Assembly (NCBI GenBank): GCA_025174535.1
Contig: JALBUN010000011.1
Span: 124,001 to 188,000 of the forward strand
Length of the DNA: 64,000 nt
Direction: 5' to 3'
Source: Cantharellus purpuraceus
Taxonomy: Eukaryota > Basidiomycota > Agaricomycetes > Cantharellales > Hydnaceae
Made by a program: the position numbers and the translations under genes. Each line of letters begins with the position of its first letter. Positions within the stretch are counted from its first letter, which is position 1. Shown in pieces: positions 2,215-24,056 of this stretch. The notes under the pieces are model-generated. The model searched no databases, was not told where the DNA came from, and was given only the letters and a program-made list of their open reading frames with translations.

Positions 2215-2242
2215 GAGGGGCATGATTGAGGTCTTATCCTCA

Positions 2243-3756
2243 ATGATGTCAAACCCTTTGGCAAGCATGAGCGTGGCGGAGCTTGAGCAGTTGCTCTTGG
2301 CCTGACAGAAGGAAGAGGAAGAGGAGTGAAGATGGAAAGAGGAGGAAGCGAAAGCTGAGGTCAAGGAGCTTGCGGCCACGATGGAGGCCCTGAGACTGAA
2401 GGAAGTGGAGGAGCAGGCGCACGAGCTAGAAGCCGCCATAGAGGTGGAGGAGGAGGTGACTGGGGCAGGGGCGACCAGCCACCCAAGAAGTCTGAGTGTG
2501 CCAATACAGGCAGGGACCCCTGAGGTTGCCATCATCTCCATTACGCAGACAGAGTCAACCTGTCCGACAACTGTCCTTATGGGGGACTTGCCGTTATGTC
2601 TGCGGTCACAGCTGTTATTTGCGGTGGGTGCAGCTGAGGAAGATGAAGCGGCGGAGGTGGAGAGGGCGGAGGTGGAGAGGGCGGAGGTGGAGAGGGCAGA
2701 GGTGGAAGCAGATCCTGATGCCAATATGGAGCTCGATGCAAATGCAGAGCCCGAGGCGGGTGTGGATGTTGGGACGGATGCAGAGCTGGATCTGACCTCA
2801 AATTGTTACAAGGAGATGGCTTGGGTAGCCACAGTTGAGGCTTGCAAAAGAGCAGAGCTTTATGCTGCTACCACCAAGAAGAATCTTGACATCGTGGTCT
2901 TTTCATTGAAGGCGCACCTGAGTGCTGATACGGAGAAGTGGGAGGCGGATCAGAGGGACATATGGTGCAAGGTAGAGAGTTGCGTGTTGGTGATCTGTAA
3001 GAAGGAGCTGTATGTTGCTAGGTTGGCAATCTAGCTTCGCAAGTGTGAGATGGAGAAGGTGGTGGTAGAATAGCAGGACAAGGAGGAGGAGAGGGAACAC
3101 TTGGAGGTGGCATCGAGAAGGAGCGGACCACCCAAGGCTCTGGCTCCAGCGGAGCCATTCGGCAGGCCTGGTGTAACTTGTGACATGGGCGTGGAGTGTG
3201 TGTGGCCTACCAGCCCAACTTGCCGCCTTTGGTCCTGTGATCATTGTTGGGGTTGGAAAGGAGGGTGTAGGATTGATGGAAAGTTTGATCCCTGAAGTCG
3301 GAGCATCAAGCCCCGACTAGTGGTACAAGGAGGGGCAGAGAAAGAAAGAGAAGGTCGTCCGACCAAAAGGCGGTGATGGAAACAGGTGCTGTGGCAGCTG
3401 GGGGTAGCGGTGTGGGGTCGGAAGGGGCAATGACCGGTGCAGGTATGGGGTGCGTCTCTGCACCCAATAGTACCGTGGGCCAGCTTATCCGGCTGGTTAA
3501 CCTGCAGTTGGAGCACCTCCGGTGGATGGAGGGGTTACTAGTGGACTTGGTGAAGACAATGAAACAGAAGGAGGTTCTGGAGGGTCAGCAGATGGCTGAG
3601 TTACATCGGCTGCAGAAGTTCATGGCCCCTTTGGACGAGGATTTGGACATGGGGGATGAGAAAGGTTGGGTGTCGGATGTAGAGAGTGATGATGAGTCGG
3701 AGACGGAGCCTGAGGTAGATAAGGGGAAGGAAAAAGGAAACGCATGTATAACATAA
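2243..3756 (+). pseudogene. Antisense accessory gene of the chromovirus, copy 1 (broken)
   Basis: This coding region lies opposite to pol, between the pol 3' end and the 3' LTR, and is homologous to 14626-16305 minus. It encodes a short charged N-terminus, an acidic segment holding about four AEVER repeats (2651-2707), a conserved helical middle region, a Cys-rich block (about 3175-3275), a predicted coiled coil and an acidic Ser/Glu-rich tail. Several in-frame stops break it, for example just after the N-terminal segment and after GKFDP. A small deletion removed the second cysteine of the cluster. Many changes from copy 2 look like CpG decay. No function is assigned in any family I know; a DNA-binding regulator is an inference from the Cys pattern in copy 2. 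Confidence 0.7.
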
Positions 3757-6900: not shown

Positions 6901-7862
6901 AGTCGGCTTTAGACTTGCTGAACATGTTGGTGAACTCATGATACTCCTTAAGGACCATAGATAGGTCTGGTGGAGTTGATCAGGTGGAACGAGCGGTGAG
7001 GAATATTGGATTGGAGAGGTGAACCTGGAATGTGTGAGAGCCATCCAGTTTGCTTAATCTGGCGGGGACCATAGCATCCACCATCGATATAAATGGAGGG
7101 GTAGACAGAGTATCTATCGGAGTGGAGTCAGTGGAGGCGGAAGATAGTTTTGCACCTAAAGTTGCTGGTGACGTCGGGGATGACACAGCCTGTACTGGAG
7201 AACGGAATGTGATATGGCCCAATGCCCAGTCAATCAACAGATTGTAGCGGGTGAGCCAATTATGTCCAAGAACCACAGAACAACTGGAGTCAAGTGGAGT
7301 AACATAGAATGTAAGGTTCTGGATTTCTCTGACAGAAAAACAGATAGACAGATCTATAGCTCGTGAAATAACAGCATTAGTAGTGCCATCAAATAATCAG
7401 AGCAATATCAGAGTTATGGTGTATGTATGTAGTTCATGTAAATTGGAAAAAGAGGAATCGAGGAAACAGTGAGTAGAACTGGAGTCAATTAATGCTTGGA
7501 TAGTGGTATCGGGGATGGAGTCGGAGTAGATGCAGAGGGTAAGGGAGTCAGAATGGGAAAGAGTGGATGCATTCAGGTGGACCTTGTTTGTCGTACAGGG
7601 AGTACCAATGCAGCCCTCAGCCCATATGGAGGCTATAGGACTGCTTATTATTTTTTTTGGTCTGTTGCTTTAGCGTTGGACTTGTCCATTGTGGCATTGG
7701 CAGCATGGCCCTTTGCCTTTGCTGCAGACAAGGTTGCCTTGTTGCAATCCTTAGCTTGGTGGCCAGGTTTTCTGCAGAACAGGCAGAGGTTGTTGTCCAT
7801 GCGGCGCTGGTGTTCCTGCTGGGTAAGTTTTCCATCCTTCCCCAGCTTGGTGGAGAGGTCCA
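3912..7862 (-). pseudogene. gag-pol remnant of chromovirus copy 1
   Basis: Domains in order on the minus strand: CCHC knuckle ([14 protein letters not shown]), a pepsin-type protease region, reverse transcriptase (6958-6074), RNase H (6013-5453), integrase (5176-4695) and chromodomain (about 4150-3930). The RT active-site box reads YLDN instead of YLDD. The RNase H motif reads ETNASNYA where copy 2 has ETDASDYA. The integrase has TSNRGSEF where Asp is expected. All three are G-to-A changes in a CpG context. A 55-bp tandem duplication at 4896-5005 shifts the integrase frame, so the polyprotein cannot be functional. Confidence 0.9.
4896..5005. repeat. 55-bp tandem duplication inside the integrase region
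   Basis: Two adjacent 55-bp units (4896-4950 and 4951-5005) differ only in their first six bases. Copy 2 has a single unit at the matching place near 13,440-13,490. Because 55 is not a multiple of three, the duplication breaks the integrase reading frame. Confidence 0.9.
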
Positions 7863-8162
7863 GAGCCGTCAGCCTCAGAGACCCATCACCGGAGTAATTA
7901 TTATTAGATTTCAAATATGTATTTAAGTTGCCCGACTGGGGACTTCAGTTCGAATATTGAATCACGCCTAGCTCCTAAGTCTGATCCTAACTCTCTAAGT
8001 CGTACTCTGTCTCCGAAGTCTTGGACACCAGTATTAGTGAGGGTGCAGCACATAAGCTGAAGCCAAGTCCGTTCCAACCCTCACGACATACTCCGACTCC
8101 AACCCAACCTCCAACCCGACCTCCGATCCAATCTCCGACCCAATCGGACCTAGTGTGTAACA
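7863..8162 (+). mobile_element. LTR-A, truncated 5' LTR of chromovirus copy 2
   Basis: This stretch matches the last ~300 bp of the 3' LTR at 16444-16970 and ends in GTGTGTAACA. The first ~220 bp are missing, and the break abuts gag of copy 1. A small hairpin present in the other copies (gggga...tcccc) is lost here by a short deletion. I see no match to a standard tRNA primer site just after 8162. Confidence 0.88.
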
Positions 8163-8194
8163 GTATATTCAAACTGCCATACTCACTCCTACCA

Positions 8195-9856
8195 ATGCCA
8201 CAATCCACCGCCAATTCTGAACGCGCCTGAATCGTCGAGGTACCCGCCCCCAGCATCGACACCATCCCCGAGGTCGTCGAAGAACCGACGGACCACATAG
8301 AGGCTGTCAATGAAGAAGACAACACCCCGCCCTCTCCAAATCTGGCGCAAGCCATCTCCCTGCTTGCTAGCAGCATCCGTAACCCACAAGCCCCTAAGTC
8401 CCGGACCAAGGCCCGAGAACCCGACCCATTCGATGGCTCCAATCCGTGCAAGCTCCAGCCATTCTTGGCGCAATGCCGGTTGAATTTCCGCGATCGCCCC
8501 AACGCATTCACATCCGATCGGGCGAAGGTTACCTTCGCCATGTCCTATCTCAAGGGCACCACACTGGACTACTTTGAGCCAGCACTCATGGACGACTCCA
8601 ATGACCTGATATGGTCAGAGGACTACTCCGACTTCATCTCCGAGCTTCGGACCAATTTTGGTTCGTACAACCCCGAAGCCGATGCCAAGAATGAACTTGA
8701 TTGACTTTGGATGAAGTAAAATCACAAAATTGCAAAATACATTGTGAGTTTCCAGCAGCTAGCTCCAAAAGTCCAATGGGGCAATGCCGCACTCCGACGC
8801 CAATTTTACGTTGGACTCCCATCCCGCATCAAGGACGAGATATCACGTGTCGGTAAGCCGGATAGTTTGGCTACCCTCCGCAAGCTCACCCAATCCATCG
8901 ATGCCCGTTATTGGGAACATCAATCTGAGGTCTCCCGCGAAAATTCGGCTAACAACAAATCGGACAAATCATCGGACAAGACCCCACAGTCCAACAAGGG
9001 GTCCAATAAGCAGGCCACTGCCAACTCAGGCCAGAAATCAAACACTGGTAACACTGCCGCTTCCAGTTCCGGTCAGAACAACGCCGGCACCAGCAATAAC
9101 TCCGGAGCTTGCAAGAGTACTCTGGACCTCTCCACCAAGCTGGGAAAGGACGGGAAACTTACCCAGCAGGAATGCCAGCGCTGCATGGACAACAACCTCT
9201 GTCTGTTCTGCGGAAAGCCTGGTCACCAAGCCAAGGATTGCAACAAGGCAACCTCGTCCGCAGCAAAGGCGAAGGGCCACGCCGCCAATGCCACAACGGA
9301 CAAGTCCGACACTAAAGCGATGGACCAAAAAAAAATAGTAAGCAGTCCTATAGCCTCCGTATGGGCTGAGGGCTGCATTGGTACTCCCCGTATGACAGAC
9401 GAGGTCCGCCTGAACGCATCTGCTCTTTCCCACTCCGACTCCCTTACCCTCCTCGTCCACTCCGACTCCATTCCCAATACCGCTATTCAAGCATTAATTG
9501 ACTCCAGTTCTACTCACTGTTTCCTCGATTCCTCTTTTTCCAATTTACATAAACTCCATACATACACCATAACTCCGATACCACTCCGATTATTTGATGG
9601 CACTACTAATGCTGTTATTTCACGAGCTATAGATTTGTCTATCCGTTTTTCTGTCAGAGAAATCCAGAACCTTACATTCTATGTTACTCCACTTGACTCC
9701 AGCTGTTCTGTGGTTCTTGGCCATAACTGGCTCACCTGCTACAATCCATTGATTGACTGGGCATTTGGCCATATCACATTCCGTTCTCCAGTACAGGCTG
9801 TGTCATCCCCGACGTCACCAGCAACTATAGGTGCAAAATTATCTTCCGCCTCCGCT
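8195..9856 (+). pseudogene. gag and protease region of chromovirus copy 2
   Basis: The ATG at 8195 opens a gag frame that has a TGA at codon 12 (probably a former CGA), then stays open to 8701. A disrupted stretch follows, then an open frame from 8744. Near 9,200-9,240 it has the nucleocapsid CCHC knuckle [14 protein letters not shown]. Downstream is a retropepsin-like segment with [11 protein letters not shown] in place of the usual DSG/DTG-containing box. An unrelated solo LTR cuts the frame after AKLSSASA at 9856. In the intact element gag would package RNA and the protease would cleave the polyprotein. Confidence 0.85.
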
Positions 9857-10329
9857 TGTATGGGAACTGGTTTTCCCTTAAAAAGATCTTGTTTAAAGTC
9901 CTGAAACTGTACAATTCCACTTGATGGCCTTAAAATATCAGCATATATCTGCTGCTTTCTCTTGATTCAGGGCCATTCAAATATTCTCTATTTTTTCATA
10001 TTTTTTTGGGAATTTTCCATCCAGAAATGAGTCTACAAACTTATTGTTCTGCTGGGCGAAGTTTTGGGACCCATATGGACCCACAAACCTTCGCAGATGT
10101 CAGCAGCCTCAAAGTCAGCCGGAGTCACCCGGACAACTGACTCATTTTCGATCACATGACTCATTTCAATCTCCGACTCAATCTGGTCACCACTGCCAGT
10201 AAATCCTCAATATCTTCACAACCACTGCACCTCCTGACTCCATTTTCAGTGGAGAGTTCAATAGAAGCCATGCCTACCCATAGCTGTGCTAATCAGCCTG
10301 GGAAACGAAGTATTGACCGAGTTATTTGA

Positions 10330-10480
10330 GTAATGGTGACTCATGCAATGACTCCTGCCATGACTCATGCTATGACTCCTTCCATGACTCATACCATGAC
10401 TCCTGTGATTACTCATACTATGACTCCTGCTCTGAGTCACACTATGACTCCATCCATGACTCATGCCATGAGTCAGAGCA
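10330..10480. repeat. Array of TGACTC/TGAGTCA motifs in LTR-B
   Basis: About nine TGACTC hexamers, alternately followed by AT and CT or CA, and two TGAGTCA heptamers occur at roughly 12-16 bp spacing. They resemble binding sites of Gcn4/AP-1-type bZIP factors. The array lies about 130-280 bp upstream of the LTR-B TATA box, where an upstream activating region would be expected. More scattered copies occur near 10,130-10,165. Confidence 0.8.
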
Positions 10481-10606
10481 AATCCAAGCAGCTCATTGGC
10501 TAGGAAACTTCCACCCCCTTCTCACATATTCCACTAGCTTCCAGTAGTTTCCATCTATTAATAGGTAGAAGTTTCCAGTAGTATTAGTCAGCTCCTGTAG
10601 ATACAA

Positions 10607-10614
10607 TATAAAAG
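10607..10614 (+). promoter_or_regulatory. TATA box of LTR-B
   Basis: The sequence TATAAAAG is followed within ~25 bp by a candidate start region and an AATAAA-like motif (gaaataaataacc). This is the usual U3/R layout of an LTR promoter. Confidence 0.55.
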
Positions 10615-11315
10615 GAGCCCATTCTGCCTCTGAAATAAATAACCATTTCTACCCCATCATTTGCACATCAGTGTGACTAGAGTGACATACAGTGTCATCC
10701 TCTATATCTCAGTAACTGTTGATTGTCCAGTTCAAGGGTCACATACAGTTGTGTAACTGTATTCGATTGCACTCCAAGTAGTGATTGTCCTGCTTTGGGC
10801 GTGAGTGTAGTATCTACCTCTCGTGACTACGAATCTACAGGGTGAGATTGTCTGTCAATAGTCCTGCCATTAGTGCTCTTGTTTAAGTTACTAGTGTGTA
10901 CTGCCTTTGCAGAGCATTAGAATCTTGAACTCGTGTGAAGCAGTTGCTAGACTACTTCACACATTGCTGTTACCCGCTTCAGAGTGTCACTGGTTGGACG
11001 GTCGGATTCATCCACCTACTTCCTCTAGCCTCTAAGTGCATTCCCCTCTTTTTGGAATATCTGGACCCCTAAGCGTCCGTGAACTCTAGACTCTGGAAGT
11101 CTTATTCATTCCCTACTGCTAAGAAACGTATTACCTTCCTGCGTATCGTCTGCATTGACCATTACAACGGATTGTAACCAAAGTACAAACGTTAAATCGT
11201 TTCTGGAGTTGTGCTGCAGTAGGATTTGATATTCTTCTCAGCTGTTCATTCACGGAATTGTGGTGATTTAGAGTTTGCCCTAACACCATAATTTTGTGGG
11301 TTCCAAAACACCGCT

Positions 11316-14300
11316 GACCCCGCTCCGATAGATACTCCGTCTACCCCTCCGTTTATATCGATGGTGGACGCTATGGTCTTTGCCAGACTAAGCAAGCTGG
11401 GCGGTTCTCACACATTCCAGGTCCACCTCTCCGACCTGATGTTCCTTGCCGCTCGTTCTGCCCGATCCACTCCACCAGACCTATCTATGGTTCCTCAGGA
11501 GTATCATGAGTTCGCCAACGTGTTCAGCAAGTCTAAAGCTGACTCCCTAGCAGAACACCGACCATATGATCTCAAGATCGAACTGGATGACAACTCCACC
11601 CCTCCACTTGGCCCTATCTACTCGCTATCACAAAAAGAGCTACTGGCTCTCCGGACATTCATAGACGAGAACTTGGCCACGGGCTTCATCTGCCCATCCC
11701 TATCTCCTCATGGAGCTCCGGTCCTATTTGTCTGCAAAAAGGACAGATCACTCCGTCTATGCATCGACTTCCGTGGGCTCAACAAGATCACCAAGAAAGA
11801 CCAATACCCAATACCCCGCACCGCAGACCTACTCAAGAGTCCTCGAAAGGCTAAGATCTACTCCAAAATAGATCTCCGACACGCCTACCATCTAGTCTGC
11901 ATCCGAGAAGGCAACGAATGGAAAACGACCTTCTGCACACGATATGGATCTTTCGAGTGGTGTGTCATGCCCTTTGGACTAACCAATGCTCTGGCCGCCT
12001 TCCAGAGGTTCATGAATGATACCTTCGCCGACCTCCTCGACATGACTGTCCTCATTTACTTAGATGACATTCTGGTATATTCGGACAATGAAGAAGAACA
12101 TCGGACACATGTCTGAGAGGTACTCCGACATCTCCAAAAGCATGGCCTCTTCGCCCGCGCTAACAAATGTGAATTCCACTCCGACTCGGTCAAATACCTA
12201 GGCTATATCCTCTCCCCAGCAGGATTAACAATGTCCGACGACAAAATCAAAGCCATACAGGAATGGCCAGAACCCCAGAAAGTCAAGGACGTACAGTCCT
12301 TCCTCAGGTTTGCCAACTTCTACCGCCACTTTATTCACGGCTACTCCAATATCACTGTTCCGCTCACCCGACTCACTAGGAAGGGTATCCAATGGAATTT
12401 CACTGACGAATGTAGACAGAGTTTTGAGACCTTGAAAAAGGCCTTTACTTCTGCTCCGATACTGACTCATTGGGTTCCAGACATTCCCATCCTTTTAGAG
12501 ACCGATGCCTCCGACTATGCACTTGCCGCAATCCTGTCCATCATCTCTCCAGACGACAGACAAGTCCACCCAATTGCTTTTCACTCGCATACATTTACGC
12601 CCCCCGAACTGAACTATGACATCCATGACAAAGAGCTCCTTGCCATATATGAAGCCTTCCGGATATGGAGACACTACCTTGAAGGTCCCTCCGATCTGGT
12701 GGACATCATAACTGACCACAAGAACTTGGAATACTTCTCCACAACGAAACTGCTCACCCGGAGACAGGTCCGATGGTCCAAATACCTATCTCAGTTCAAT
12801 CTCATTATCCATTTCCATCCAGGTCGACTTGGAGCAAAGCCTGACGTGCTAACTAGACACTGGGACGTCTACCCTAAAGAGGGGAATAGCGACTATGCCA
12901 CTGTAAACCCCACAACTTTCGTCCTGTGTTTACTAACGAGCAGCTGGCATCGTCCCTACGAGCATCCACCCTCATGACTCCCACTCTCCAAGCTGTCACC
13001 ATTATGGACATCAACCAACTCCATTCCGACATCTGCTCATCACTCCAATCCGATCCTGTTGCAGTTAAACACTTGGACAACCCTTCCGATCCAAAATGGT
13101 CACTTGACCCCGAAGGACACCTCCGACACAACAACTGGATATACGTCCCCGATGCCAATGGCCTCCAACTCCGAGTTTTGCAGTATTATCATGATCACCC
13201 GATCTCCAGCCACTTCGGGCAAAATCGCACACAAGGATTAATCCGACGAGACTATGTATGGCCAAAAATGCGGGAATACATTCAACACTACTGTAACTCC
13301 TGCACCATGTGTATGCGCTCAAAATCGCAAAGGCACAAACCCTATGGAACGCTCAAACAACTTCCGATCCTGGAGCAACCATGGAACTCCATCTCCATGG
13401 ACTTCATAGAGAAGCTCCCCCCATCGCTCGGATATGACACCATACTCATGATTGTTGACAGGTTCACCAAACAGTCACTATTCATTCCAACGCATGACAC
13501 CATCACCTCCGCCTCGCTAGCTAAATTGTTCGTTCTCCACGTATTCTCTAAACATGGAGTCCCGTCGCATGTCACATCCAATTGGGGTTCGGAGTTCGTG
13601 TCCTCCTTCTTCCGCACATTAGGAAAGGCTCTCAACATGAAGCTCCATTTCACCTCCAGATACCACCCTGAAGGAGACGGACAAACGGAACAAATGAATC
13701 AGTCACTGGAACAATATCTCCGAATCTATTGTAACTATCAACAAGACAACTGGGCTGATCTACTTCCAATCGCAGAGTTTGCCTACAACAACGCTCCAAA
13801 TGCGACTACCGGCATCTCTCCATTCTTTGCTAATAAAGGCTACCATCTGAACATCTCCGTCCACCCTGAGAAAGAACTTGCCTCCACCAAAGCCCGCCAA
13901 TTCATAACCGACCTCGATCAACTACACCAACATCTCTGAGAGACCATCTCTGATGCCCAGAAACAATATCAAGTCTCCGCAGACCGACGCTGCATCCCGG
14001 CTCTGGACCTGCAAATCAGAGACAAAGTATTCGTTAAGGCCGAACACTTCCAGACCACCCATCCATCGAAGAAACTCTCCGAGAAATACTTAGGTCCTTA
14101 TGAGGTCATTGCTTGCGCAGGCAGCAGGTCTTTCACCCTCCACCTCCCAGACCACTTCCAAGCAGTTCATCCAGTCTTCCATATATCAATGCTCGAACCT
14201 GCTACCACGAACGAGATCTCCAGTCGCACGCAACCTCCACCTCCCCTGATCATCATCGAAGGAGATAATGAATATGAGATATCCGAGATCCTGGACTCGA

Positions 14301-14476
14301 AGATCGACCGTCGATACAAGTGCAAGCTCCAGTACTTAGTCAAATGGACTGGATATGAAGGCACCGATGAAGAGTCTTCATGGATCTCCACATCCGAACT
14401 CGATCATGCATCTGAATCCATCTCCGATTTTCACTCCGCTTATCCAGGCAAACCTGGCCCTCTTATGAATCTTTAA
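11316..14476 (+). pseudogene. pol of chromovirus copy 2 (RT, RNase H, integrase, chromodomain)
   Basis: Reverse transcriptase spans about 11,500-12,350 and keeps the catalytic box YLDD ([11 protein letters not shown]). RNase H follows with TDASDYA and the ELNYDIHDKELLAI region. The integrase has its zinc-binding N-terminus (CNSCTMC) near 13,290-13,310 and a core starting SMDFIEKLP, but the second catalytic Asp reads Asn in TSNWGSEF. The chromodomain is at about 14,270-14,440 (LQYLVKWTGYEG...ESSWI). Breaks are a TGA at 12,114, a frameshift near 12,907 and a TGA at 13,937; both stops are CGA-to-TGA type. The polyprotein ends at TAA 14474-14476. Confidence 0.92.
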
Positions 14477-14625: not shown

Positions 14626-16305
14626 TTATACATTGCATTTCCTTTTCCCCTTTCCCTTATCTACCTCAGGCTCCGTCTCCGACTCCTCATCACTCTCTAC
14701 ATCCGACACCCAATCCTTCTCATCTCCCATGTCCGAATCCTCGTCCAACAGGGCCATGAATTTCTGCAACCGACGTAACTCGGCTGTCTGATGACCCTCC
14801 AGAACCTCCTTCCATTTCATCGTCCTCACCAAGTCTACCAACAACCCCTCCGTCCGCCGAAGGTGCTCCGACTGTAGGTTAACCAGCCGGATAAGCTGGC
14901 CCACAGTGCTATTGGGCGCCGAAACGCACCCCGTACCTGCACCGGTTGTCGCCCCTTCCGATCCAATGCTGCTACCCCCGGCTGCCACAGCACCCGTCTC
15001 CGTCCGCCTCTTTTTGGTCAGACGACCCTCCGATTCCTTCTCTGCCCCTCCTTGTACCACTAATCGGGGCTTGATGCTCCGACTCCAGGGATCAAACTTC
15101 CCATTGATCCTACACCCTCCTTTCCGACCCCGACAACGATCGCAGGACCAAAGTCAGCAAGTCGGGCCGGTAGGCCACACGCACTCCACACCCGCATCAC
15201 GACATAAGTCGCAAGTTACACTGGGTCTGCCAAATGGCTCTGTTGGAGCCAGAGCCTTGGGTGGTCCGCCCCTTCTCGCTGCGGCCTCCAAGCGTTCCCT
15301 CTCCTCCTCCTTGTCCTGCTGTTCTGCCGCCACCTTCTCCATCTCACGCTTCCGAAGCTGGATCACCGACCTTGTGACATGCAGCTCCTTCTTACAGGTC
15401 GCCAACACGTGACTCTCCACCTTGCACCATATGACCCTCCGATCTGCCTCTCGCTTCTCTGTATCAGCACTCAGGTACACCTTCAGGGAAAAGACCGCGA
15501 CGTCGAGGTTCTTCTTAGTGGTAGCAGCATAGAGCTCCGCTCTTTTGTGAGCCTCGACCGCAGCTACCCAAGCCATCTCCTCATAAGAATTCGAAGTAGG
15601 ATCCAGCTCTGCATCCATCCCAACATCCATGCCTGCCTCGGGCTCCACAGTTGCATTGAGCTCCACATTGGCATTGGGATCCGCTTCCACCTCCGCCCTC
15701 TCCGTCTCCGCCGCATCATCTTCCTCAGCTGCCCCTAACTCAAATAAGGGCCGTGCCCACAGACGTAACGGCGAGTCCTCCGCAGTGACAATCCTCGAAT
15801 GAGTCGCCTCCGTCCATGTAACGGAGATGATGGTGACTTCCGGGGTCCCTGGCTGTATTGGCACACTCGGACTTCCTGGGTGGCTGGTTTCCCCTGCCCC
15901 GGTCACCTCCTCCTCTACCTCCATGGCCACCTCTAACTTGTGTGCCTGCTCCTCCACTTCTTTCAGTCTCGCAGCCTCCATCGCTGCCGCAAGTTCCTTC
16001 ACCATGCAGGCCCTCTCGGCCTTCACTTCCTCCTCTTTCCTTCTCCGTTCTGTTTTCACCGCCTCTTTCCGTTGCTGCTCCTCCTCCTCCTTCCATCTCT
16101 GTCCCGCCTCCTCCTCCTCCTTCCGTCTCCGTGCTGCCTCCTCCTCCTCCTTCCATCTCCGTTCCACCTCCTCCTCCTCCTTCCGTCTCCGTTCTGCTTC
16201 CTCCTCCTCTTTCCATTTCCGCTCCTCTTCCTCTTCCTTCCGTCAGGCCAAGAGCAACTGCTCCAGCTCGGCCACGCTCATGCTTGCCAAAGGGTTTGAC
16301 ATCAT
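14626..16305 (-). pseudogene. Antisense accessory gene of the chromovirus, copy 2 (Zn2Cys6-like)
   Basis: Read on the minus strand from paired ATGs at 16305/16302, just downstream of a TATA box. The product would have a charged N-terminus of about seven R/W-KEEEE repeats (coiled coil), an acidic middle, and a helical segment rich in Lys/Glu/Arg. A six-cysteine block with spacing C-X2-C-X6-C-X12-C-X2-C-X6-C follows (about 15,213-15,121), then a Leu-rich coiled coil (VGQLIRLVNLQ onward) and an acidic tail ending KRKCNV. The spacing fits fungal binuclear zinc clusters, though an extra Cys lies in the loop and the first half is less basic than usual. Two in-frame TGA codons, one near the N-terminus (shared with copy 1) and one inside the Cys block (15154-15156), break this copy. 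It is convergent with pol, with 149 bp between stop codons. Confidence 0.72.
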
Positions 16306-16333
16306 TGAGGATAAGACCTCAATCATGCCCCTC

Positions 16334-16341
16334 CTTTTATA
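16334..16341 (-). promoter_or_regulatory. TATA box of the antisense gene, copy 2
   Basis: On the minus strand TATAAAAG stands 28 bases before the ATG pair of the antisense gene, as in copy 1. It lies inside the element, between the purine tract and the coding region, so the antisense gene does not depend on the LTR promoter. Confidence 0.6.
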
Positions 16342-16443: not shown

Positions 16444-16970
16444 TGTTATGACTATATTCATTAACGCCCAGATCCCCATCAGATCCCCTCAGATCCCCAC
16501 GCACATGAAATCTATACTCCATTTGGAAACCGCTACGTCTCCATTTACCTGTCCGATTGTCACCGCCAATTCCGCCCATCCATCTCCAGTTCCGATTGAT
16601 GCATCAGCATCACCATAGGAACCCAGACATCCATCCCCGTCAGACTCGGACATACTCATGTAAGGCCGTCGGCCTCGGAGACCCATCACCAGAGTAATTA
16701 TTATTAGATTTCAAATATGTATTTAAGTTGCCCGACTGGGGACTTCATTCCCCAGTTTGAATATTGAATCACGCCTAGCTCCTAAGTCCGATCCTAACTC
16801 TCTAAGTCGTACTCTGTCTCTGAAATCTCAGACACCGGTATTAGTGAGGGTGCAGCACATAAGCTGAAGCCAAGTCCGTTCTGACCCCCACGACATACTC
16901 CGACTCCAACCCGACCTCCAACCCGACCTCCGATCCAATCTCCGACCCCAATCGGACCTAGTGCGTAACA
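16444..16970 (+). mobile_element. LTR-A, 3' LTR of chromovirus copy 2
   Basis: This 527-bp LTR begins TGTTATGACTA directly after the purine tract AACGGAGAGATAC and ends GTGCGTAACA. It is the reference copy for LTR-A. A TATTTAAG-like motif and a small hairpin (ctgggga...ttccccag) lie near 16,710-16,760. No target duplication can be tested because the 5' LTR is truncated. The right flank is Copia-like sequence. Confidence 0.9.
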
Positions 16971-17343
16971 TCTACATCCATCCTAGCGACCATCTGCTTC
17001 TGCTTCACCAGCTTTACTGTGTTCATATTCATGTGGCTGAAGATTTGGTGCCACTCGTCCCAGGTACATGTATTCTTGGCCAGGTATGCGTGATCCAACT
17101 CATTTTTAGCACAGACGTTCATGTGATATAGGCGGCCTTCCTTGGCCCCTTCAGCCAGTATGGTGCCATCAGGTGCCTTAATTACAGTGTGTGAATCTTT
17201 GAAGAGAACAGCAAAGGCAGCATCCATGATCCATGATATGGATATGAGGTTGTGGGAGGCACTAGGTGTGTGCAGTACGTTGCGAAGGGTTATTGGGTAT
17301 GTCCTGCCATTGACATTTGATAGCAGGTGAACAGTGCCCTTCT
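16971..17343 (-). pseudogene. Copia-like fragment, GAG-pre-integrase region
   Basis: The minus-strand frame reads through KGTVHLLSNVNG, ISWIMDAAF and EGRLYHMNV to TWDEWHQIFSHMN. This is the pattern of the GAG-pre-integrase domain of Ty1/Copia polyproteins, including the conserved W-H-x-x-x-x-H-x-N core. Both ends are cut, by LTR-A on the left and LTR-B on the right, so only a piece of the polyprotein remains. Confidence 0.75.
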
Positions 17344-18271
17344 TGTTTTGGAACCCGCAAAATTATGGTGTTAGGGAAAACTCTAAATCACCACAATTCC
17401 GTGAATGAACAGCTGAGAAGAATATCAAACCCTGCTGCAGCACAACTCCAGAAACAATTTAATGTTTGTACTTTGGTTACAATCCTTTGTATTGGTCAAT
17501 GCAGACTATACGCAGAAAAGTAATACATTTCTTAGCAGCAAGAAATGAATAAGACTTCCAGAGTCTAGAGTTCACGGACGCTTAGGGGTCCAGACATTCC
17601 AAAAAGAGGGGAATGCACTTAGAAGCTAGAGGAAGTAGGTGGATGAATCCAACCGTCCAACCAGTGACACTCTGAAGCAGGTAACAGCAATGTGTGAAGT
17701 AGTCTAGCAACTTGTTACACACTAGGTCTGAATTGGGGTTGGAGATTGGGTTGGAGATTGGGTTGGAGATTTGGTTGGAGTTGGAGAAGGAGTCAGTTAC
17801 ATCGTGGGGGTCAGAATGGACTTGGCTTCAGCTTATGTGCTGCGCCCTCACTAATACTGGTGTCTGAGATTTTGGAGGCAGAGTACGACTTAGAGAGTTG
17901 GGATTGGACTTAGGAACTAGATGTGATTCAATATTCGAACTGGGGAATGAAGTCCCCAGTTGGGCAACTTAAATACATATTGGAAATCTAATAATAATTA
18001 CTCCGGTGATGGGTCTCCAAGGCCAACGGCCTTACATGAGTATGTCCGAGTCCGACAGGGATGGATGTCCAGGTTCCTATGCTGATGCTGATGCATCAAT
18101 CGGAACAGGAGACGGATGGGCAGAATCAGCAGTGACAATCAGACAGGTAGATGGAGACGTGGCGGTTTCCAAATGGAGTATAGATTTCATACATGCAGGG
18201 ACCTGAGTGGATCAGATGGGGATCTGGGCGTTAATGAATATAGTCATAACACAACTTTCACATGAGTTCAA
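17344..18271 (-). mobile_element. LTR-B fragment, interrupted by LTR-A
   Basis: Starting at TGTTTTGGAACCC, this is the reverse complement of the last ~390 bp of LTR-B (compare 10,920-11,310). It is interrupted by a complete LTR-A at 17713-18251 and continues only a few bases beyond. Then LTR-C sequence begins near 18,272. The order of events is LTR-B first, then LTR-A into it. Confidence 0.8.
17708..18256 (-). mobile_element. Solo LTR-A with target-site duplication CAACT
   Basis: A minus-oriented LTR-A (17713-18251, 539 bp) starts TGTTACACACTAGG and ends TAGTCATAACA. It is flanked by CAACT at 17708-17712 and 18252-18256. The LTR-B copy at about 10,945 shows the uninterrupted target. It is slightly longer than the reference because of extra ttggagattggg-type units near its 3' side. 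Confidence 0.92.
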
Positions 18272-18671
18272 GTTTCAACTTTGATTGACTCTCAGAGAAG
18301 CCAGAAGTTATTATATTACAAGCGCAGCAGGCTCTAATATTAATCAAACTTGGAGAAGAGGTTAATACAGAGTAACTGATTAGTAATTAACACACTACAA
18401 GCCCACTTGGAGCAGTAACTTGAAGTGTATTAATTGTTATTCATTGATCAAGAACCTCACACGTGTAATTGAGACTCTGAGGTTAGTCAAATTATCACAT
18501 ATCGGGCTATTGGTTATAATCAAGAATCTTGCACGTTTAATTGAGACTCTGAGGTTAGTCAGGTTAATATGTACTAGGCTATTGATTGGTCAAGAATACT
18601 GCACATTTAATTGAGACTCTAAGGTTAGTCAGGTTAATACGTACTTTGCTATTGATCAGTTGGTTCAATTG
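18272..18671 (+). mobile_element. LTR-C fragment (downstream half)
   Basis: About 390 bp match 20,692-21,015 closely, starting at tttgattgactct and ending at ggttcaattg. The second copy carries a TATA box upstream, so this part is probably the R/U5 half of an unidentified LTR. It contains near-identical internal repeats of a ~60-bp unit (tcaagaa...ctgaggttagtca). The right end is cut by LTR-A. Confidence 0.6.
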
Positions 18672-19145
18672 AGGTTGGGTCGGAGTCGGAGTACATCGTG
18701 GGAGTTGGAACAGACTTGGCTTCAGCTTATGTGCTGCGCCCTCACTAATACCAGTGTCCAAGATTTCAGAGACAGAGTATGACTTAGAGAGTTAGGATCA
18801 GACTTAGGAACTAGGCGTGATTTGATATTCAAACTGGGGAATGAACTCCCCAGTCGGGCAACTTAAATACATATTTGAAATCTAATAATAATTACTCTGG
18901 TGATGAGTCTCCGAGGCCGACAGCCTTACATGAGTATGTCCGAGTCCGACGGGGACGGATGTCCAGGTTCCTATGGTGATGCTGATGCATCAATCGGAAC
19001 CGGAGACAGATGGGCGGAATCGGCGGTGACAATCGGACAGGTAAATGGAGATGTAGCGGTTTCTAAATGGAGTATAGATTTCATGTGCACAGGGATCTGA
19101 GTGGATCGGACGGGGATCTGGACGTTAATGAATATAGTCATAACA
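18672..19145 (-). mobile_element. LTR-A, minus orientation, end-truncated
   Basis: Almost complete reverse complement of LTR-A ending in TAGTCATAACA at 19145. The first ~40 bases at its 3' side are missing, where it meets LTR-C. It is joined head-on to a plus-strand LTR-A end, mirroring the arrangement at 1610-2104. Confidence 0.82.
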
Positions 19146-19239
19146 GACCCCCACAATGTACATGACTCCGACTCCGACTCCGACTCCAACCAAACCTCCG
19201 ACCCAATCTCAGACCTTCAATCAGACCTAGTGTGTAACA
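19146..19239 (+). mobile_element. LTR-A fragment (3' end only)
   Basis: This ~94-bp piece starts gacccccacaatgtac and ends GTGTGTAACA, matching the terminal part of LTR-A in plus orientation. It directly follows the inverted LTR at 18672-19145 with no target duplication. Confidence 0.75.
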
Positions 19240-19480
19240 GTCAGCCATGGAGCTTGTCTCTACATACTTCTGAGTATATAGTTCTTCAAAGTAGTAGTGG
19301 ACATCTATCTGCTGCTGATTGGTCACATACATGTCATGCCACATGTCCCACATCTGCTTTGAAGTTTGGGCCCTTTGAAACATGCAGCCATTGAGAACTC
19401 TCAGTGGTGCCCTTCATGAGACCCTGAGCTGCATGAACATGTGTTACATCCTGTAACACCAAGTCCAAACTCCAGACCTC
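19240..19480 (-). pseudogene. Copia-type gag fragment
   Basis: The minus-strand frame contains SKGPNFKADVGH and, in an adjacent frame, WHDMYVTNQQQIDVHYYFEELYTQ. This resembles the UBN2-type gag of Copia elements, which commonly has a W-x-x-L-x-x-x-Y core followed by an L/F-x-E-L segment. A frameshift separates the two parts. It is a relic with undefined ends. Confidence 0.5.
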
Positions 19481-19495
19481 CATCTTCTTCTTCTC

Positions 19496-19620
19496 CATCC
19501 CCATCAACTCCACCTCCATCAACTCCACCCCCATCAACTCCACCCCCATCAACTCCACCCCATCAACTCCACCTCCATCAACTCCACCTCCATCAACTCC
19601 ACCTCCATCAACTCCAAACT
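19496..19620. repeat. 15-bp minisatellite (ccatcaactccacct)
   Basis: About eight copies of a 15-bp unit run in tandem with minor variation, one unit being 14 bp. Read on the minus strand it would encode GVELM or GGVDG repeats, depending on the frame. It is probably slippage-generated expansion inside retroelement sequence. Confidence 0.88.
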
Positions 19621-20342
19621 CCATTATTGTTCTCTTTATAAGTAGTTTCTTCTTATGGGTTACAACAAACCTTCTTTTATATTGTTTAGTTTCAGTTCAG
19701 ACTTGGGTCCAAACTCCAAACTCCTTTCCATGTTGTACCCCATATCCATCTTATTGTCTTGTTGTTTTAGTTTCAGCATTCAATTCTCCACATACTTATA
19801 TAGGCTACTCTCTGTCTATTACAGTAGTTTGTATATCGACTAAGATTTGCCCCATTAACTTCTTGGTTGCTAGCTTCTTGACAAGTACCTTCTTGACAAG
19901 TTGAACTCCGGATCCCTGATCCAACTCCATACTCTGAACTCCAAAATATTGGACCAATGAACCAAGGGAGTGCAACACACAAGTTGAAGCCAAGTCCACT
20001 CAATCCAACTCAATAGTATTGCTCCCACTCTGTCTCCGGTTGAACTGGAACAGTAAAGCCTCATCTCCCTCTTTCCTAGCAGCCAAACTCCAGCCCTTTC
20101 CCATTGAACCCTGAGTTGTCCCAGAGCTTAACATCATGCAGCAACCAGTCCATGTGTTCCTTCCATTCAAGCTTCCATTCTGCAGTAGCCACCTTTGTGC
20201 TGGATTGCTGGAGTATATGAAGTTCTAAACTACTTCAAATAAGGACTATTATTTAGTAGTTCAAAGGTATTTCAAATGTTCTAATGAATGTACTTATATT
20301 TTGCATTTTTGTATATTTGAGCCCACAAGTATACACAATGGG
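19621..20342. other. AT-rich retroelement remnant without clear borders
   Basis: No intact gene is present. The stretch near 19,960-20,000 shares a block with the 3' half of LTR-A (gtgcaacac...gttgaagccaagtcc), suggesting a distantly related LTR. A minus-strand frame around 20,070-20,200 (TAEWKLEWKEHMDWLLHD) looks like a piece of a retroelement gag but matches no family I can name. Confidence 0.4.
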
Positions 20343-21015
20343 TTGGTTGCTGATATAATATGTCATGTGACTTCAAAGAGCACTCACATGCAAGCGAATG
20401 ACATGTATATTACATAAGCAGCAGAGTTCATGCACTTCAGCCAAAAGCAGTCACAGAAGGTTCTGACACCTTCCTGGACCTTCCACAAGGTTCTCTGGCC
20501 TTCTCTTTCCTTCTAGGGGATATTCTCTAATTAGTTACATAAGCTAGATAGCCCATGTATATAAAAGGGGCTGCAACAGCAGTGCAATAAAGAATATCTT
20601 TTTACCACACACACACAGCAGTGTCCACTCAAGCATTGAGTAATCATCACATAAGCAGCACACTTATATCAGCTACTCTTAAGGTATATTAGCTTTGATT
20701 GACTCTTGGAGAAGCCAGAAGTTATTATATTACAAGCGCAGCAGGCTCTAATATTAATCAAACTTGGAGAAGAGGTTAATACAGAGTAACTGATTAGTAA
20801 TTAACACACTACAAGCCCACTTGGAGCAGTAACTTGAAGTGTATTAATTGTTATTCATTGATCAAGAACCTTGCACATTTAATTGAGACTCTGAGGTTAG
20901 TCAGGTTAATATGTACTAGGCTATTGGTTGGTCAAGAATACTGCATGTTTAATTGAGACTCTGAGGTTAGTCAGGTTAATATGTACTTTGCTATTGATTG
21001 GTTGGTTCAATTGTG
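20343..21015 (+). mobile_element. LTR-C copy with TATA box
   Basis: The second half repeats 18,272-18,671. Upstream lies TATAAAAG at 20560-20567, followed by gcaataaagaat, the normal U3-R order of an LTR. The exact 5' border is not resolved; tgatataatatgtcatgtg near 20,352 is one candidate. The right border near 21,015 abuts the inverted Copia-like fragment. Confidence 0.5.
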
Positions 21016-21723
21016 GGCATTTCAATAAATCAACACCACAGTCTATTAACTCACCTCTTTGAGATGAGATTAATATCCCTTGACTGTTGATTCTATCATG
21101 GATAAGACATGTACCATGAATACACTTGTTCAGAAGGAAGTGTTCAAGTGCATATCTTTTTACGTTGAAGGGATTATTGTTGGCTTTAATCCACTCAACC
21201 CGCAGTCCTAAGGCACTAGGTTACTTTCCCCTTTGAAGCACCTGAACCCTTGAATGCCTGTCAATCTTGACTTTACATTGCATCAGCAGTAAAGCATGAA
21301 CTACATGTGGCCAGCATAAAAATCTCTATTGCTTCACTTCCTGTGGCAACATTGATTGTGTTTGTTTACTGGAGTATAATTTCTTAATGGGTTCTCCATT
21401 AAAATAGTTTCCAGCTTATTGCTAGCCTTGAAAGGTCATACATCCTCAGGCTAAGCTTAGATTGTGATTAACACCACAGTTTAGGTTGAAGTTCATGGTT
21501 CCAAAACATGGATGGTGCTTCTGGACAAGTCTCCATACCATTCTATCAGCCAAAGGTAGCAAGACTGCAGTGCAGCTTGCATGTGCTTGGCCCAGAGCAA
21601 GTAGTTCTGGCCATTGAGCTTTGGAAATTTGAAGGGCTGAACCCTCATATGGCATATAAGTAGGTGATGAAGGTTTTTACTATGAAGTGACTCACCCTCA
21701 ATATGGATGTCAGGGTGAGTCAT
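21010..21723 (-). pseudogene. Copia-like gag fragment
   Basis: A minus-strand frame begins with HLLICHMRVQPFKFPKLNGQ and continues NYLLWAKHMQAALQSCYLW. This is the typical start of a basidiomycete Copia gag (F-x-x-L-x-G-x-N-Y-x-x-W). After about 90 codons the frame is lost, but sequence similarity to 591-1609 (inverted) goes on to 21,010. No zinc knuckle or protease is visible. Confidence 0.65.
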
Positions 21724-22271
21724 ATTCTCTTGACCCCCCTATCAGCACAGCCTGTCAGGGTGCATCTCCCCTATTTCATTGCCCCTATCATTGCCCCTAT
21801 CACTTCCCCTATCCTTCCCCCCTATTATTCCCCTCTCTTGGTTCTCCTATCCATCTCCATCATTTAGTATAAAGACTCACCTTGGTGCAGTGTGATCCCC
21901 TCAGCTTGATCTCTGAGGATATCTGCTGTACCAGGTAAGTCCCATGTATTTATCAGAAACAGCTGTATAGACTGAGGATATCTGCTGTACCAGCTGGCAT
22001 TATCTCTTATCGGCTCTCATCTATTGAGTATCTTGTTGTTGTGGCCTCATCATCAGCATCGCCCTCACAGTGGATGCATATGGATCTGCAGTTTGGCAGG
22101 ATACAAAAATTTCTTTCCAGCACCTGCTGGAGTTCACACCTTTATCCATGAACTCCAGGTATGCATATTGTTATAGTCTGTATATCTCTAATCTAATATT
22201 AACACCTTTATCTGTGAACTCCAGCTGTAGACTCAAGGTCCAGCTCACCACCTGAACCTACTAGTTGTTAG
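21707..22271 (+). mobile_element. Putative Copia LTR (LTR-D)
   Basis: The segment has a TATAAA at 21868-21873 and is followed by ggttatgggccc. After it, from about 22,293, comes the same gag leader (cttcatcatctacttatatgccatatgagggttca) that stands inverted at 21,640-21,690. So LTR-like sequence lies between two divergent gag starts. The candidate start is TGTCAGGGTGAG; the end near tagttgtta is degenerate. The borders are uncertain. Confidence 0.45.
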
Positions 22272-22540
22272 GTTATGGGCCCTGCAGTAAAAACCTTCAT
22301 CATCTACTTATATGCCATATGAGGGTTCAACCTGTAATTACCAAAGCTTTAGCTTTGGTTTCATATATGAGGCCATTTCTTTTCATATGCAGCCATTTTT
22401 TTTTGGCAGTTTGTGAAATGTGCTTTGCTCCCGAGATCATGTGCTTCAGGGTGCAAACAATGTACATAGTTGCCCAATTACCAAACCTTTAGCTTTGGTT
22501 TTGTATTATTGGGTTCACTATCCTGACTAACCCTCAGATC
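22272..22540 (+). mobile_element. Leader and truncated gag start of a Copia-like element
   Basis: It contains the leader described for LTR-D and the codons for MRVQP, after which similarity to the gag at 21.6 kb stops. Two copies of a taccaaa-ctttagctttggttt motif occur (about 22,338 and 22,482). Nothing else is recognisable. Confidence 0.4.
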
Positions 22541-23021
22541 CTTACAGGAGGCATTGAGGGAGAAATCAACCAATGCAGCAGGCCAAGGACATGTTTGCTC
22601 TGGCTGTCATGAAAGGTGAGACAGCTCTTAGACTTGCTCAAGGTTTCCAATTCATATTATGACCTGCATTGTGGGACCAACCCTCATTCCCAGGAGGGTC
22701 ATAATCTTTTTTGTCAATCAAGGTCTTTTGCAGTAGATGAGGAAATTCAGCCAAAACCCATTAGTGCTTCTGAAATGCTTCAGACACCTTTCCTGCCTGT
22801 ATTTAAGCATGGAATTAACAAGGTTGAGAGTTTTATGTATGTTGGATTGCATCAGCAGCAAGGCTGTTTGATTACAAATGCCTTGTTTTGCCAAAGCTTG
22901 GGGATGGATACACAGAGTCTCCACATTATTCAAGTCTCCTGCCTAGAGAAGCTAGGTTGGAATAGGTGTGTCCTTAGCCTATGTTTTCTCTTTGGTGCCT
23001 GCTTCCATCATTGTCTATTAC

Positions 23022-24056
23022 ATGGGTGTTACGCACTAGGTCTGATTGGGGGTCAGAGATTGGGTCAGAGTCGGGGTGGGAATTGGGGTGCATTGTGGAG
23101 GTCAGAATGGACTTTGGCTTCAGCTTATGTGCTGCACCCTCACTACTACCAGTGTCCAAGATTTCAGAGATGGAGTACGACTGTTACACACTAGGTCTGA
23201 TTTGGGGTCGGAGATTGGATCAGAGTCGGAGTACGTCGTGGGGGTCGGAACGGACTTGGCTTCAGCTTATGTGCTGCACCCTCACTAATACCGGTGTCTG
23301 AGATTTCGGAGATGGAGTACGACTTAGAGAGTTAGGATCGGACTTAGGAGCTAGGCGTGATTCAATATTCAAACTGGGGAATGAAGTCCCCAGTCGGGCA
23401 ACTTAAATACATATTTGAAATCTAATAATAATTACTCTGGTGATGGGTCTCCGAGGCCGACAGCCTTATGTGAGTATGTCCGAGTCCGACGGGGATGGAT
23501 GTCCGGGTTCCTATGGTGATGCTGATGCATCAATCGGAACCGGAGACAGATGGGCGGAATTGGCGGTGACAATCAGACAGGTAAATGGAGACGTAGCGGT
23601 TTCCAAATGGAGTATAGATTTCATATGCGCGGGGATCTGAGGGGATCGGACGGGGATCTGGGCGTTAATGAATATAGTCATAACAACGACTTAGATAGTT
23701 AGGATCAGACTTAGGAGCTAGGCGTGATTCAATATTCAAACTGGGGAATGAAGTCCCCAGTCGGGCAACTTAAATACATATTTGAAATCTAATAATAATT
23801 ACTCCAGTGATGGGTCTCCGAGGCTGACGGCCTTATGTGAGTATGTCCGAGTCCGATGGGGATGGATGTCTGGGTTCCTATGGTGATGCTGATGCATCAA
23901 TTGGAACCGGAGATGGATGGGTGAGATCGGCGGTGACAATCAGACAAATATTGGAGACGTGATGGTTTCTATAAGGAGTATAGATTTCATGTGCATGGGG
24001 ATCTGAGTGGATCAGATGGGGATCTGGGTGTTAATGAATATAGTCATAACAATGGG
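23022..24056 (-). mobile_element. Outer solo LTR-A, target duplication ATGGG, split by a second LTR-A
   Basis: The outer LTR begins TGTTACGCACTAGG at 23027 and ends TAGTCATAACA at 24051, with ATGGG at 23022-23026 and 24052-24056. A second LTR sits inside it at 23182-23685. Without the insert it is about 516 bp. It is more decayed than the inner copy; for example, the antisense 66-codon frame found in other copies has a stop here. Confidence 0.93.
23177..23690 (-). mobile_element. Inner solo LTR-A, target duplication ACGAC
   Basis: A minus-oriented LTR-A (23182-23685, 504 bp) begins TGTTACACACTAGG and ends CATAACA. It is bracketed by ACGAC at 23177-23181 and 23686-23690. It is inserted in an older copy of the same LTR, which gives a clear relative age. 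Confidence 0.94.

Follow-up and report, generated by a model that had tools for sequence, protein, structure and literature searches.

A conserved antisense gene with a zinc-cluster-like cysteine pattern in a chromovirus of Cantharellus purpuraceus

A 64-kb stretch of the Cantharellus purpuraceus genome (contig JALBUN010000011.1, positions 124,001 to 188,000; G000:C11 in our numbering of this 40.15-Mb genome; hereafter the window) contains two copies of a Ty3 chromovirus. In both copies an additional open reading frame (ORF) lies between pol and the 3' long terminal repeat (LTR), on the strand opposite to pol. This raises the question whether the antisense frame is a gene of the element and, if so, what its product might do. 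A first-pass annotation of the window had described the frame and read it as a gene for a Zn2Cys6-like coiled-coil protein, conceivably a transcription regulator or a factor controlling the chromatin targeting of the element. The observation is confirmed by our analysis and the interpretation is partly supported: the frame is a genuine gene and not a chance ORF, and its product is a candidate zinc-cluster protein. The relevant features are the following.

14626..16326, minus strand: antisense accessory gene of copy 2, 567 codons including the stop, with two in-frame TGA codons
16335..16341, minus strand: TATAAAA box of the antisense gene, 8 bp ahead of the first ATG in copy 2
16021..16245, minus strand: N-terminal array rich in E, R and K, built of tandem repeats (with a period of 30 in copy L007), bounds approximate
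15112..15213, minus strand: six-cysteine cluster C-x2-C-x6-C-x12-C-x2-C-x6-C, with a TGA in the linker of copy 2
14905..15111, minus strand: basic linker after the cluster, with KKRRTE, resembling a nuclear localisation signal by inspection
14626..14901, minus strand: leucine-rich C-terminal segment plus acidic tail, bounds approximate
2222..3756, plus strand: decayed antisense gene of copy 1, with a deletion within the first cluster half

The gene of copy 2 runs from an ATG at 16326 to a stop codon at 14626-14628 and is interrupted by TGA codons at 16243-16245 and 15154-15156; the gene of copy 1 is more decayed. It is convergent with pol, and 149 bp separate the two stop codons in copy 2. The TATA box claimed for the gene is indeed present, and the block from TATAAAA to the ATG is kept in 30 of 31 copies. 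With just 8 bp between the box and the ATG at 16326, it is more likely that translation begins at an ATG further downstream.

Is the antisense gene a regular part of the element? A DNA search with the gene, in which 40 of 748 candidates were scored, listed 50 matches. A search for pol ends gave 569 candidates, of which we took the top-scoring 40: 24 had a listed antisense match, and 15 of the other 16, which were fetched, proved positive, some only partially. Hence 39 of these 40 pol ends adjoin an antisense match, the sole exception being locus L056. In a protein search (76 of 1297 candidates scored), 32 of the 76 loci are stop-free over the matched stretch; openness of the frame is counted here over all scored loci regardless of age. 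Of 43 rows that begin at residue 1 or 2 and reach residue 560 or beyond, 14 are stop-free, a count that covers stops and not frameshifts. The gene thus has the placement of the antisense ORFs termed aORF-3R, opposite gag-pol and between pol and the 3' LTR. Presence in most copies and conservation like that of pol, which also characterise this class, are seen in the 39 pol ends and in the codon analysis described next.

Codon-level selection was analyzed in 31 copies: copy 1 and the 30 top DNA matches of copy 2, a set that contains copy 2. The codon counts use an actual copy, L007, as background. Changes shared by at least two copies have largely arisen in active ancestors, and singletons mostly represent post-insertion decay. 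Because the copies decay chiefly by CpG transitions, we dropped every column in which at least one copy has a CpG (773 of 3859). The shared non-CpG changes in the antisense frame comprised 48 synonymous, 20 nonsynonymous and no stop changes, at 654, 2387 and 139 opportunities, respectively. Normalised by these opportunities, the ratio of nonsynonymous to synonymous changes (N/S) was 0.11 (p=2e-17), and the frame therefore does not evolve neutrally. Singletons gave an N/S of 0.48 (54 synonymous, 94 nonsynonymous and three stop changes). For the last ~450 codons of pol we obtained 0.06 for shared and 0.43 for single changes, and the difference in shared N/S between pol and the antisense frame was not significant (p=0.29). 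We conclude that the antisense frame is under purifying selection, like the 3' part of pol. Four wrong frames showed shared N/S values of 1.31, 2.69, 1.55 and 3.55. In the mirror frame, which has its third codon positions in common with the antisense frame, the value was low (0.29), as in no other wrong frame. A direct two-by-two test nevertheless favoured the antisense frame: changes that are synonymous there and nonsynonymous in the mirror frame were shared at 15 of 188 opportunities, the converse at 1 of 354 (p=1e-6). Furthermore, the mirror frame holds three majority-state stops versus none in the antisense frame.

Selection was unevenly distributed along the protein of L007. No shared nonsynonymous change was found in the zinc cluster (amino acids 378-411, one synonymous change) or in the basic linker (412-480, ten synonymous changes), that is 0 against 11 over the whole block 378-480. 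The first 30 residues showed 0 against 4 and residues 481-540 showed 1 against 7, and the middle and the tail of the protein are looser. Over the whole aligned region of the 31 copies, 21.2% of the CpG cells carry a transition versus 1.3% of other cells, and the CpG transitions are without CpA bias, so that the decay looks methylation-driven instead of resembling classical repeat-induced point mutation. CpG decay as a source of the apparent conservation could be rejected, since the result holds with the CpG columns dropped.

The antisense protein consists of a short start region (MSNPLASMSVAELEQ), the E/R/K array, an acidic middle, the cluster, the KKRRTE motif, the leucine-rich segment and the acidic tail that had been noticed before. 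The cluster reads CDLC-x6-C-x12-CDRC-x6-C, exactly the spacing first reported for copy 2. All six cysteines are conserved in 28 of the 31 copies, and the individual positions are kept in 30, 30, 31, 30, 31 and 30 copies. By itself this count is weaker evidence than the codon test, because CpG transitions do not alter the amino acid at cysteine codons. Two coiled-coil regions had also been proposed, and as canonical coiled coils they are not supported. The first is the array encoded by a 30-bp tandem repeat, which in copy L007 has no heptad signal (shuffle p=0.24) and appears to resemble a charged single helix more than a coiled coil. Segments 256-345 (p=0.97) and 118-150 (p=0.45) of the same copy also lack the signal, and only the C-terminal leucine-rich segment is suggestive of a weak heptad (p=0.07).

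The assignment to the fungal zinc clusters is supported by the cysteine pattern and not by the profile score. Larger cut-outs around the cluster reached 14.1 and 18.5 bits with Zn_clus (PF00172), below the cut-off of 21. Within these sub-threshold matches the first half aligned to profile positions 20-37 in one cut-out and the second half to positions 1-13 in another. The basic half is second in this cluster, and by inspection it is first in those 8 of the 19 host Zn_clus loci in which a cluster pattern was recognised. The halves may, tentatively, be swapped relative to canonical clusters.

Homologues were sought in a collection of 5.8 billion proteins by a search that depends on shared words and is not exhaustive. 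No homologue of the antisense protein was found at E<=0.001 among the 7993 candidates sharing most words, and none of the cluster region at E<=1 among 121 candidates. The pol protein, used as control, gave 2775 hits, of which 120 were listed, and the matches listed include relatives from Trametes, Paxillus, Pisolithus and Armillaria. The collection hence covers fungal elements. In viral contigs, 22 stretches fitted the word pattern and none was a relative; searches of the PDB returned nothing meaningful. Since the Zn_clus score is below the cut-off and the homologue search was empty, we infer, rather than observe, that the protein is a Zn2Cys6 regulator.

A second chromovirus family in the same genome has a comparable arrangement. 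In two chromodomain searches (best 150 candidates scored in each), seven of eight fetched places belonged to one sister family, whose chromodomain end shares 69-79% DNA identity with that of the first family over 89-162 bp. From the named pol relatives, both families look basidiomycete. The sister family also carries an antisense gene directly after pol and convergent with it, at the same position as in family 1. Sister copies are the loci L071-L076 and L078-L098 (in L075, for instance, the antisense stretch lies near 900-1340 in pol-sense orientation); L077, where only a tandem repeat was seen, was left out.

The N-terminal part of the sister protein contains MPSAEEL..., an EKKKAEEEKR stretch and CDTCIKRDDVCEWA. 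A predicted intron (GTGAGT...CTGAT...TAG, 50-65 nt) lies in the cluster linker and is followed by TGKSHSCLTCQSNQLKCEVKGS, a basic segment around KHRWTRA, a helix-like stretch and the acidic tail DDERWWSWEEID...EESE. Joining at the GT-AG ends yields a cluster of C-x2-C-x6-C-x10-C-x2-C-x6-C, the second half of which matches the second half of the Zn_clus profile below threshold. The acceptor stands next to second-half DNA in 25 of 27 copies (the two without a recognisable acceptor were dropped), and the donor is GT[GA]AGT in 23 of these 25. Of the 27 copies, 21 have an intact first cluster half, 23 an intact second half and 19 both. An acceptor was accepted only beside second-half-like DNA and a donor sought only 45-66 nt upstream, search windows that tilt the second-half count and the length range towards the intron model. 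The putative intron differs in length between copies, and the steps would disrupt the reading frame were it coding. Exon 1 had a shared N/S of 0.18 (wrong frames 1.36 and 0.90) and exon 2, with poorly aligned stretches masked, of 0.33; the background copy, L088, is frameshifted late in exon 2.

A third chromovirus family (L067-L069) showed no antisense ORF of at least 110 amino acids in ~3.2 kb from the chromodomain on in L067 and L068, the two usable loci of three fetched; L069 has an adjoining family 1 copy. Several long open pol frames of ~1342 amino acids occur in this family, which is perhaps young. Locus L070 looks, by eye, like a host chromodomain-helicase gene.

What might the antisense gene do? 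We propose that it is an accessory gene of a basidiomycete-type chromovirus and encodes a nuclear zinc-cluster DNA-binding protein that regulates or de-silences its own element, a reading for and against which we see the balance as even. An antisense mRNA would arise from the TATA promoter that the gene possesses immediately inward of the 3' LTR; in the sister family this mRNA would be spliced. The TATA box and the predicted sister intron are indirect signs of such a transcript. Its translation product would probably be a nuclear DNA-binding protein, in which two C-x2-C-x6-C halves would form a binuclear zinc cluster as binding module, with the basic KKRR segment behind it. The short C-terminal helix may dimerise the protein, and the acidic stretches may contact the transcription or chromatin machinery. 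Most likely, the protein's target in trans would be DNA of the element itself (the LTR or the 3' region), where it would regulate transcription or counter silencing. The CpG decay suggests that the copies are methylated, which makes an anti-silencing role attractive.

More tentatively, and with somewhat less confidence than in the proposal for family 1, we suggest that the antisense genes of the two diverged families descend from one ancestral gene for a DNA-binding zinc-cluster protein (halves swapped in one family), and that the element uses this protein as a trans-regulator or anti-silencing factor of its own. The antisense orientation would allow the gene to keep an intron. During retrotransposition, the genomic RNA does not carry the intron of an antisense gene in splice orientation; a spliceosomal intron would therefore be removed only from the antisense mRNA and would survive in the genomic RNA.

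Apart from the low N/S of the mirror frame, several results weigh against these proposals. A Pfam scan of the whole antisense protein returned no family up to E 10, and single cluster halves gave no Pfam match. The R/K-rich loop that DNA-binding Zn2Cys6 domains have is absent from both halves of the sister cluster, whose Zn_clus score was 10.8 bits in one copy with nothing in another. In sister exon 2, one wrong frame is also low (0.55, the other 0.95), and without masking the values were 0.50 versus 0.56 and 0.90 (23 of 26 copies). Comparison of the two antisense proteins by hhalign gave E 0.02 and a probability of 2.3%, with an alignment covering just the second cluster half and a score reached by 1 of 100 column shuffles. 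As sequence similarity is this weak, a common origin of the two genes rests on position, layout and cluster. The cluster could instead bind protein or RNA, or be merely structural.

Among other explanations, the one that survives best is a selected accessory factor acting in another step, binding the element's RNA or cDNA or the integrase-chromodomain complex and aiding nuclear import or integration targeting. By inspection, the KKRR motif, the charged array and the cysteine cluster would also suit a protein that acts as nucleic-acid chaperone or import factor, and selection like that on pol agrees with it; such roles are also discussed for plant antisense ORFs (PMC7264820). The gene is, however, apparently transcribed apart from gag-pol, so that the protein would have to meet the complex in trans, and a separate TATA promoter would fit a nuclear regulatory protein better. 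We consider this explanation rather unlikely. Still less probable is the capture (transduction) of a host zinc-cluster gene by the element. The host genome does offer possible sources, with 19 Zn_clus matches above cut-off, at least two of them in overlapping loci. Against a capture stand the antisense gene at the same position in two diverged families, the order of the halves in host clusters noted above, and the lack of a relative in the collection that yielded the 2775 related pol proteins, by a word-based and not exhaustive search. A capture in the distant past is conceivable. The overlapping host loci L046 and L049 themselves contain several Zn2Cys6-like clusters within 3 kb. A nested foreign insertion is also unlikely, given the 39 of 40 pol ends and the same position in two families.

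That the antisense transcript itself matters, through double-stranded RNA or interference, with the protein incidental, appears very improbable. Convergent genes 147-149 bp apart could yield overlapping RNAs, and a role at transcript level is raised for plant elements in one review (PMC7264820); yet codon-level purifying selection and the absence of shared stops point to a protein, and the codon selection contradicts a transcript-only reading as sole explanation. Finally, a mirror artefact, with the frame open only owing to a sense-strand gene opposite, is rejected by the two-by-two test and can practically be dismissed, even though sense ORFs of 150-350 amino acids lie opposite the antisense frame in many copies.

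The element that carries the gene was correctly called a chromovirus. Its pol carries reverse transcriptase, RNase H and integrase, as expected for this group, and ends in a Tf2-1-like SH3 and a Chromo domain (Chromo E 2.6e-8, scored on copy L002). Copy 2 lies on the plus strand, has a 527-bp 3' LTR and a pol stop codon at 14474-14476, and is composed as follows.

7865..8162, plus strand: truncated 5' LTR of copy 2
8744..14476, plus strand: gag-pol region of copy 2, broken, with the chromodomain (Chromo scored on copy L002) at the pol end
16444..16970, plus strand: 3' LTR of copy 2, TGTTATGAC...GTAACA (TGTTA...TAACA), with a purine-rich tract directly ahead

Relative to copy L050, the gag-pol region of copy 2 holds an insertion of ~1.45 kb at ~9857-11310, part of which matches 17344-17712 in inverted orientation. 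Further LTR copies in both orientations flank the two elements (window positions 16444-24051 and 1066-2104) and are probably solo or nested. In L050 (G000:C1:3311500-3320300) pol ends at 5691 and the two LTRs occupy 296-834 and 7678-8205. The stretch from pol to the 3' LTR contains the antisense ORF, open across 594 codons. This locus apparently comprises two elements in tandem with one common LTR; a self-match of 835 nt (97.2% identity, 10 mismatches) spans both LTRs.

To our knowledge, antisense accessory genes of LTR retrotransposons are known and their function is not. New here are the zinc-cluster type, the pol-like codon selection, the predicted intron and the arrangement common to two families. 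A recognisable cysteine cluster, measured selection, an own promoter and a predicted sister intron make the question of function directly testable. Among the papers listed by searches of the open-access literature we found no fungal retrotransposon with an antisense zinc-cluster gene, and the words antisense, ORF and zinc are absent from a paper on Laccaria elements (PMC3411680). A figure legend in PMC2864245 labels an 'add. ORF' to which no function is assigned. Compared with the fungal Zn(2)-Cys(6) factors of PF00172, the present cluster has the same two C-x2-C-x6-C halves, R/K residues in one half and a basic linker behind, and it differs in its score below the Pfam cut-off and in the apparently, if tentatively, swapped order of the halves.

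The protein HBZ of human T-cell leukaemia virus type 1 (HTLV-1) is a basic leucine zipper factor. It is likewise encoded antisense in a retroelement and nuclear, but it is not a zinc cluster protein and is unrelated, and serves as an analogy only. It is named in PMC11963269, a source also for the antisense genes of plant elements. These genes had been the precedent given in the first-pass annotation. The antisense ORF of Grande has its own promoter and a nuclear protein, and Retand has tandem repeats in its antisense-ORF region (PMC11963269, PMC7264820). The antisense ORFs of Retand, RIRE2 and Grande (TRP28, gene23) differ from the present gene in belonging to plant elements, Retand being a non-chromovirus, and in having TRP28 instead of a zinc cluster; no TRP28 match was found in our protein by the Pfam scan. 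Antisense ORFs are, however, not confined to plants. Boty of Botrytis carries the antisense gene brtn (Zhao et al. 2011, as cited in PMC7264820, PMC8365987, PMC4227169), which is the nearest precedent. Boty/BcGypsy1 of Botrytis cinerea is likewise a fungal chromodomain Ty3 element with an extra antisense gene, and brtn is listed among the ORFs between pol and 3' LTR, as here (PMC7264820, PMC4227169); its host is an ascomycete, unlike the present one. If the antisense gene of the Cantharellus chromovirus does encode a self-regulator, an analogue of the antisense regulators that some retroviruses use would have evolved in fungal retrotransposons.
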